From positions 1 through 64,000 of the forward strand of contig CANROJ010000002.1 of NCBI GenBank assembly GCA_947632215.1: a stretch of DNA of 64,000 nucleotides. The letters are read 5' to 3'. Origin of the DNA: an uncultured Flavobacterium sp. (GTDB lineage Bacteria; Bacteroidota; Bacteroidia; Flavobacteriales; Flavobacteriaceae). The translations under genes were made by a program, and so were the position numbers. Positions 2,292 to 4,650 of this stretch are shown piece by piece. Below the pieces are notes generated by a model that ran no database searches, was not told the origin of the DNA, and saw nothing but the letters and a program-made list of their open reading frames with translations. Within the stretch, counting starts at the first letter, position 1. Every line of letters starts with the position of its first letter.

Positions 2292-2576
2292 TTTATAAAT
2301 AGAGTAAAGAAACTTTTTAGCTTAATATCGAAAAGTACAAAATAAGGGAAAAATATTGGAATTACAATTTTTTGGTTAGAAAATAATGCTAGGCATAATT
2401 TAAATAACCTTATAAGTTTTAGTTAGTTGTTGTTTTTTTGCTCTATAAGCCAAGGAAAGTTTTTAACAGGAAAATACAGTTAGTAACTAGTTTGACTAAA
2501 GCAGGAGTATTTTAGGAACAATGCAGGTATAAATCGAAATAAAGCCCCCTTGCAGCAGTAGAGTAAAATACTATAA

Positions 2577-3099
2577 TTATCAACAATGTTAATAAGATAA
2601 TTAACAAGACAGATATAATTGTTTATAAATATTTATGTCTGATTATATGGACTCTTTAATAGGAGTATATGATGTATAGATTATTGATAATCAAGATTGT
2701 TTGTAACTTTATATCATTAAATAGATTGTTAATAACTCAATATTTTATTTCTTTATCGCCTGGCTATAGAGTAATTTTTAGAAAAGATATCAACATTTTA
2801 TGTTTGTATCTATGTTTTTAGGGTCTTAATCTGTTTAAACAAGTACTTATTGGCTTAAATAACTCGAATTTATCACTGGCGTAAATACTATTTATAGATA
2901 GTTATCAACAATGTTTATAAATATGTTTATAATTATTACCAGGTTGTTAATAACTATATTATTCTATATTATTAAGGTTTAATTAACTGTAAATAAGCTG
3001 TTTGTTGTTTGTGTTGATTAAATGTGTGGTCTGTTATTAGGTATTAAATAGGTGTTTAAATTTGTTTATGAACATAGTTATCAACATAATTGTTCACAA
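2577..3099. other. candidate replication origin / DnaA-binding region
   Basis: TTATCAACA at 2577, 2902, 3078; TGTTAATAA at 2587, 2727, 2945; TGTTTATAA at 2620, 2912, 2924, all fitting TTATNAACA on one strand or the other; AT-rich; no ORF >=60 aa from 2292 to 3334. Confidence 0.45.
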
Positions 3100-3334
3100 G
3101 TATAGATGCGATTAAATTAGTGTGTTTGTTATGACTTAAAACAAGTGTTAGATGAATAAAGGAGATAGAAGCTGATTTTTGTTAGGTTTTAATTTTATTT
3201 TTCAAATTACTTTTGTAAAATAAAAGGTAGGTAGCCATAATAATTTAAATAACTATAATAAAGATTACTTATAAGAATTAGGTTATCTATAGTTATTCGA
3301 ACATGAACTGATATCTAATTTATAGAAATAGATT

Positions 3335-3619
3335 ATGGAAGCAAAAAAAATAAAAAGTAGAAGAAAAGAATTAGGTTTAACACAGGAAAGTATTGCGAAG
3401 GGCTTAGGGATTTCTCAAAAGGCTTACTGTGACATCGAAAATGGAAAAACGAAATTGAAAACAGATACATTAGATAAGGTGTGCAAAATTCTTCGAGTTT
3501 CTCCATTTGCTGTTTGTCCTATCTCATGTGAATGTTCCGTGGAAATAGAGCGAAAACATTTGAAACTTGTGTCTTTTTTACAACAAAACAACATTGAGAT
3601 ACCTCTAGAGTTAGTATAA
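3335..3619 (+). CDS. XRE-family helix-turn-helix regulator with a Cys-rich C-terminal segment
   Basis: HTH: KSRRKELGLTQESIAKGLGISQKAYCDIENGKTKLKTDTLDKVCKIL. Confidence 0.88.
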   Translation: MEAKKIKSRRKELGLTQESIAKGLGISQKAYCDIENGKTKLKTDTLDKVCKILRVSPFAVCPISCECSVEIERKHLKLVSFLQQNNIEIPLELV

Positions 3620-3658
3620 CAAAAAAGTCTCTTTTAAAAGAGACTTTTTTGTTATACT
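3613..3658. terminator. bidirectional terminator, 46-bp perfect palindrome
   Basis: AGTATAACAAAAAAGTCTCTTTT / AAAAGAGACTTTTTTGTTATACT between convergent XRE and fabH-like genes. Confidence 0.85.
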
Positions 3659-4650
3659 TATTCAATGTTCCATCTAAGGAGACTAGCTCCCCAAGAGAAG
3701 CCTGCACCGAAGGCTGTTAATAAAAGAAGGTCGCCTTTCTTTATTTTATCTTTGTGTTGCCATATACACAAAGGTATAGTGGCAGCTATTGTATTTCCAA
3801 AGTATTCTATGTTACTCAAGGTCTTTTCTGGAGTAATGCCCAATTGTGCTCCTACTGCATCAATTATTCTTTGATTAGCTTGATGCGGAATTAGATAATC
3901 TACCTTATTAATATTTAAGTTATTTTGGTTAAGAATGTCTTTACAGGCTTTACTCATAGAAGTTACGGCTTGTTTAAAAACAACTTTTCCATCTTGTTGT
4001 ATATAAGGGTTTTGCTGATGCTCACTTTGGGTAGTATGTGGATAAAGAGATCCTCCAGCAAGTATATTTAGAGACTCTTGTCCTAGTCCATTGCTACATA
4101 ATAAAGCATCTATGATGCCCTCTTCTTTTGAAGGTTCAAGCCATACTGCACCAGCTCCATCTCCAAAAAGAACATTGGTTGAACGGTCCTGTAAATCAAC
4201 ATAGGCACTAATTTTATCCGCTCCTACAACTACTACATTAGTATATCTGTTAGATTCTATTAGCGATGCTGCTAAATCTAACGCATATAAAAATCCTGAA
4301 CAAGCTGCATTTACATCGAAAGCCCAAGGAGAGCTTATCCCAAGTTTTCCACAAATTATATTTGCTGTACTAGGCATAGGCATATCTGGGGTTGAGGTAG
4401 CTACAATTAATGCTTGTATATCATTGATGTTCTTATTGTAAGATTCTGCTAAATTTTTTATGGCAGCAACAGCCATGTCAGAGGTTGCTAGATTTGTATC
4501 TAATATTCGGCGTTCCTTAATCCCAGTTCGCTTTAAAATCCATTCATCTGTTGTGTCTGATATCTTTTCAAGATCACTATTAGTTCGTCTGTTTTGAGGA
4601 ACAAACCCACCAATTGCAGTGATCGATGCAAATGTATTTTTACTACTCAT
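3658..4650 (-). CDS. fabH: beta-ketoacyl-ACP synthase III (FabH-like)
   Basis: Active-site context DVNAACSGFLYALDLA, IPHQANQRI, GNTIAATIP. Confidence 0.9.
   Translation of the reverse strand: MSSKNTFASITAIGGFVPQNRRTNSDLEKISDTTDEWILKRTGIKERRILDTNLATSDMAVAAIKNLAESYNKNINDIQALIVATSTPDMPMPSTANIICGKLGISSPWAFDVNAACSGFLYALDLAASLIESNRYTNVVVVGADKISAYVDLQDRSTNVLFGDGAGAVWLEPSKEEGIIDALLCSNGLGQESLNILAGGSLYPHTTQSEHQQNPYIQQDGKVVFKQAVTSMSKACKDILNQNNLNINKVDYLIPHQANQRIIDAVGAQLGITPEKTLSNIEYFGNTIAATIPLCIWQHKDKIKKGDLLLLTAFGAGFSWGASLLRWNIE

Follow-up and report, generated by a model that had tools for sequence, protein, structure and literature searches.

A conserved DnaA-box cluster outside oriC as a probable satellite DnaA-binding locus in Flavobacterium

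Comparison with described DnaA-box clusters

Bacillus subtilis carries several DnaA-box clusters (DBCs) outside oriC per genome, and early initiation becomes strong only once all six have been removed (PMC5295017). In Escherichia coli, datA is a locus of about 1 kb outside oriC with five DnaA boxes (PMC5295017, PMC4585315), while DARS1 and DARS2 have a three-box core with conserved spacing; datA and the DARS loci each keep a conserved relative distance from oriC (PMC4585315). DnaA titration on the E. coli chromosome has recently received experimental support (PMC12371093). For Bacteroidota, no DnaA titration, datA, DARS or DBC locus was found described in the open-access papers searched, and once-per-cycle control of replication appears to have been little studied in this group.

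Here, a stretch of 64 kb (the window) was analysed, which forms the start of contig C2 in the 2.34 Mb, 101-contig assembly of an uncultured Flavobacterium sp. (G000, the present genome). Gene content and the surroundings of the origin point to Flavobacteriales. The window's unstranded, non-coding gap at 2292-3334 (23.9% GC) contains a DnaA-box cluster outside oriC, which we consider reasonably likely to be a satellite DnaA-binding locus, acting by titration or in a datA/DARS-like manner. The locus shares with the DBCs that boxes of the clade's own type, as judged by an oriC-derived PWM, lie away from an oriC located elsewhere, and that the same locus is conserved in related species, with the exception of G186, which has no boxes. 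It differs from the DBCs in belonging to another phylum, in its box (TTATYAACA), and in that a coding gene of relatives encloses part of the cluster. A size of about 1 kb, several boxes and a conserved relative oriC distance are likewise common to the gap locus and datA; datA itself depends on an IHF site and stimulates the hydrolysis of ATP, and neither sequence homology nor membership is claimed. A trio of boxes resembles the core of DARS1/DARS2 in number, conserved spacing and relative oriC distance, but all three point the same way, 164-193 bp and 12 bp separating successive starts, and DARS membership is not claimed. The box sequence and its clustering are also those of the Flavobacteriaceae oriC at mnmG, whereas the gap is without gltX/ybeY-mnmG neighbours and lies off the skew switch. 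Taken as a whole, the work supplies defined loci and a candidate box sequence for flavobacterial DnaA.

Box content of the gap and the putative binder

Ten TTATNAACA sites are packed into 510 bp of the gap (2577-3086). Nine of them had been listed by the first-pass annotation, all at the positions where we find them, and the tenth, TTATGAACA at 3066-3074 on the plus strand, had been overlooked. The same annotation was right in describing an AT-rich, ORF-poor region of about 1 kb, as no ORF >50 aa lies inside 2292-3334, and in reporting dnaA as absent from the window: the gene is on contig C22, where its neighbourhood shows no box cluster. Neither the window nor four other loci gave an Rfam match, and a tRNA scan of the window found none. 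Over the entire window 17 TTATNAACA matches compare with 8.75 expected, ten of the 17 falling at 2577-3086, and 5000 dinucleotide shuffles of the gap produced 0.30 sites on average and 3 at most, against 10 observed. Genome-wide counts in G000 were taken from pattern searches, those for TTATSAACA and TTATAAACA from among the matches listed. The count for TTATNAACA was 302 versus 319 for the reversed control pattern, i.e. the pattern is not over-represented; close direct box pairs, by comparison, number 12 versus 1 for the control pattern. Thus, the unusual feature of the boxes is their clustering, without genome-wide enrichment. That a 9-mer which is AT-rich and common genome-wide should cluster by chance in AT-rich DNA is contradicted both by the shuffles and by a layout conserved across species (see below), and the probability of this explanation is negligible.

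The origin boxes of six relatives (n = 41) read TTAT(C/T)AACA. Position 5 is never A or G, and position 6 is A in 41/41 boxes and never C, in a collection that permitted A or C at this position; the base preceding the boxes is mostly G or C. As origin boxes never carry A or G at position 5, four of the ten sites in the gap, namely the three copies of TTATAAACA together with TTATGAACA, are likely to be weaker boxes. When boxes were scored with a PWM from the six relatives' origins only, whose box counts include no G000 sequence, the five best matches of the 64 kb window all fell inside the gap. Box TTATCAACA (2577-2585, +) is followed 10 bp on by a minus-strand box, a layout kept in G283, G090, G376 and G072, and this second box is TTATTAACA (2587-2595, −; oriC-PWM score 13.6). 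Box AGTTATTAACA occurs at 2727-2735 (−; score 15.2, among the window's five best) and again at 2945-2953 (−; 15.2). Two copies of AGTTATCAACA, at 2902-2910 and 3078-3086 (both +; 17.4), are the first and third members of the trio, the second being the weaker TTATGAACA at 3066-3074. The TTATAAACA sites are all on the minus strand, at 2620-2628, 2912-2920 and 2924-2932. Certain of these are conserved despite their presumed weakness, and the site at 2620-2628 occupies the same position in relatives, 33/34 bp after the preceding box.

The gap boxes are likely to be bound by DnaA, since the origin boxes of relatives read TTAT(C/T)AACA, as in the gap. Alignment of the G000 DnaA with that of B. subtilis shows SLAS in place of SLPK and RDHAT in place of RDHTT, so that Ala replaces the residues equivalent to P423 and T435 of E. 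coli (Pro and Thr in E. coli and B. subtilis). In E. coli DnaA these two residues are known to contact bases (PMC5043019). The Ala substitutions are consistent with a shifted box sequence, and we infer that they account for the A at box position 6. As DnaA binding is deduced here from sequence, and as position 6 of the 9-mer departs from the textbook box, a different protein that also binds oriC, such as a nucleoid or partition factor, might occupy the boxes instead. The boxes are, however, found within the oriC of the clade, where G000 mixes TTAT(C/T)AACA-type boxes with TTATCCACA, and DnaA is substituted at base-contacting residues; another binder is accordingly rated as quite improbable.

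Position of the chromosomal origin

The first-pass annotation had read the gap as "oriC or a DnaA titration/regulatory locus". The first half of this proposal draws on a dense set of boxes in AT-rich, non-coding DNA, features that the gap indeed has. The origin of the genus, however, lies between gltX and ybeY-mnmG, where relatives carry a box-rich non-coding region. In G000, gltX is located on contig C29, with boxes running in the direction of the contig end, and ybeY-mnmG lies at the end of C19: oriC of G000 is split across the ends of these two contigs. On its origin side C29 matches the G020 sequence, and a core of the gltX/ybeY-mnmG locus is common to G000, G020 and G009. In the complete relative G234 the locus lies at 953.4 kb, coinciding with the sign change of the GC skew (sampled values negative up to 820 kb, −0.033 over 949-958 kb, positive from 960 kb), and the homologue of the window locus is 404 kb away from this switch. 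Among relatives, homologues of the gap lie 404-536 kb from oriC. A published Flavobacteriaceae genome likewise has its origin at mnmG according to Ori-Finder and GC skew (PMC12843772). The gap shows no cumulative GC-skew minimum (minus-to-plus switch), as an origin would: the skew is +0.12 on its left, where only 2.3 kb are visible, and positive on its right. As the origin is at gltX/ybeY-mnmG, split over C29 and C19 in G000, the window gap is not oriC, and we leave this explanation very little weight. The titration/regulatory half of the proposal is supported by the agreement in box sequence, by conservation among relatives and by boxes that were kept when the gene was lost, with DnaA as the putative ligand. 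It should be noted that an origin search in G000 guided by nothing but box clusters would arrive at the wrong place.

Tandem repeats with units of about 120 bp were observed in G020 between ybeY and the box-rich origin region (L046:3000-4600), and repeats of this type might be the cause of the split between contigs in G000. A box pair upstream of fmt was considered as an origin and rejected: in the complete genome G010 its place is mid-arm (1.92 Mb), whereas the skew changes sign near 1.03 Mb. This pair, TTATNAACA-N11-TTATNAACA with starts 20 bp apart (L035:6319-6347), has matching loci in G001, G002, G006, G009, G012 and G013, and genus members with the pair are mostly without other clusters. 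Upstream of gltX, few or no TTATNAACA sites are present in G010, G006, G001, G002 and G013; the box rule at gltX is valid for only part of the genus, i.e. a subclade.

Conservation of the locus and further clusters

On its right, the gap adjoins an XRE/HTH_3 regulator gene (3335-3619, +; Pfam HTH_3, 3.9e-14), which together with fabH (3658-4650, −) served as synteny anchor; fabH adjoins XRE in 13 relatives too. The order AraC-fabH-XRE followed by two TonB-receptor genes was found in 13 relatives, with boxes in 12/13, and in these 12 the first receptor gene contains three same-orientation boxes at distances of 183 bp and 12 bp. One member of the trio deviates from the 9-mer in some species, e.g. 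G072 and G020, and five of the 12 possess an additional cluster in the stretch that separates the receptor genes. Such a locus is not found everywhere, as G186 has XRE and both receptor genes with no boxes, and as the XRE anchor is present in only 17 of 400 genus genomes, G000 included. By alignment and layout, the gap cluster is homologous to the cluster upstream of the XRE-fabH pair in related species. The trio in the window gap reads +, 164 bp, +, 12 bp, +, the 12-bp step between its last two boxes being as in 13 relatives. The block TTATNAACAATGTTNATAAG...TTAACAAG...TGTTTATAA (2573-2632, unstranded) aligns with the relatives' cluster between the two TonB-receptor genes, as seen in a side-by-side sequence match and in blastn (71% over 91 bp with G090); its layout in G000 is +, 10 bp, −, 33 bp, −. 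Random placement of ten boxes gave the trio and intergenic layouts jointly in 0 of 200,000 trials, in a test framed post hoc.

When the receptor gene was aligned by codons and divided into 775 seven-codon windows, the two highest third-position identities belonged to the box windows (0.87 and 0.82, compared with a mean of 0.46). Nowhere else in this gene are synonymous sites as conserved as at the boxes, so the alignment indicates that the boxes are under selection as DNA and not through the protein. Moreover, G000 and G353 have no receptor gene beside XRE and still hold the trio (+, 193 bp, +, 12 bp, + in G353); G000 also retains the intergenic block, alignable with relatives, and tblastn for remnants of the receptor protein in the window found none at E<=0.01. 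A tree of XRE and fabH places G353 within the G072 group (support 0.98) and G000 near G020 and G346 (weak support, 0.31). As G000 and G353 fall into different clades, the two gene losses look independent. Boxes that outlast their lost host gene are an unusually clear sign of selection on satellite sites. These data also bear on whether the boxes are an operator, for DnaA or another factor, that controls a gene nearby, for instance XRE or those of the TonB receptors. The G000 cluster does lie directly upstream of XRE, but the trio of relatives is in the body of the receptor gene, at least some 1.4 kb away from XRE, the G000 boxes remain although both receptor genes are gone, and boxes of this kind are also present at oriC and at unrelated genes; operator function is therefore regarded as unlikely.

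The first-pass annotation had set its reading against equally dense regions elsewhere in the genome, and such regions exist to some extent: G000 holds three more clusters, on C9 (39713-39886, by aat), on C27 (11725-11979) and at oriC on C29. The C9 array (L030:5714-5887) consists of seven boxes in one orientation, beside aat, in steps of 20-39 bp, including one TTATCCACA and one TTATTCACA, and its counterpart in relatives is beside thiC/aat. The C27 cluster (L033:5726-5980) counts eight boxes, with gcvP on one side and a large AAA/UvrD-type helicase gene on the other, and is found in the same place in G020, G234, G137, G172 and G346. In G090, G072 and G353, a cluster is present at one further locus (L149, L150, L155). 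The distance to oriC amounts to 11.8-13.6% of the genome for the fabH-XRE cluster, on either arm (five complete relatives), 8.0-9.5% for the thiC cluster (five complete genomes) and 13.3-16.1% for the gcvP cluster (three genomes). In G234, the oriC sides of the clusters are swapped. The conserved distance could be a product of general synteny among related genomes.

On the preferred reading of a satellite locus, DnaA probably binds the gap boxes, which are of the TTAT(C/T)AACA type found in the oriC of the clade. In relatives the locus is some 12-13% of the chromosome away from oriC, so that its copying would follow shortly upon initiation; the same map position is presumed for the fragmented G000. 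Early copying would double the number of sites and draw DnaA from oriC, which may hinder re-initiation and so favour one replication start per cycle. A titration effect at the gap is proposed on the model of the Bacillus DBCs and of E. coli datA/DARS. Closely related, and part of the same idea, is an action like that of datA (ATP hydrolysis) or DARS (reactivation), which sequence cannot tell from titration. Taken as a reading of its own, it would have DnaA complexes on a fixed layout hydrolyse DnaA-ATP or release ADP rather than merely titrate DnaA. The way in which the trio keeps its orientation and its steps (183 bp and 12 bp in relatives) recalls the boxes and spacers of E. coli datA and DARS, systems whose relative oriC distance is likewise conserved (PMC4585315); the alteration of the spacing to 164 bp in G000 and 193 bp in G353 counts against it, and we judge this reading to be somewhat unlikely. 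Still more can be proposed tentatively, namely a clade-wide, multi-site control of DnaA in which an oriC with the shifted box (TTATYAACA) would be joined by satellites at thiC/aat, fabH-XRE, and gcvP or a counterpart, each kept at a set distance from it. In that case the fabH-XRE cluster would have been built inside a TonB-receptor gene, have outlived that gene in two lineages, and have its own function in DnaA activity, comparable to datA/DARS and of independent origin. We regard this wider proposal as possible, if rather doubtful.

The left neighbour of the gap encodes a 299 aa protein of unknown type (1392-2291, −). Among 39 relatives searched, a homologue was found in G020 alone, where it is encoded at the far side of the same locus. 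Both proteins have a conserved N-terminal part in common and an identical C-terminal end, GQISLF, which we take to resemble a sliding-clamp-binding motif.
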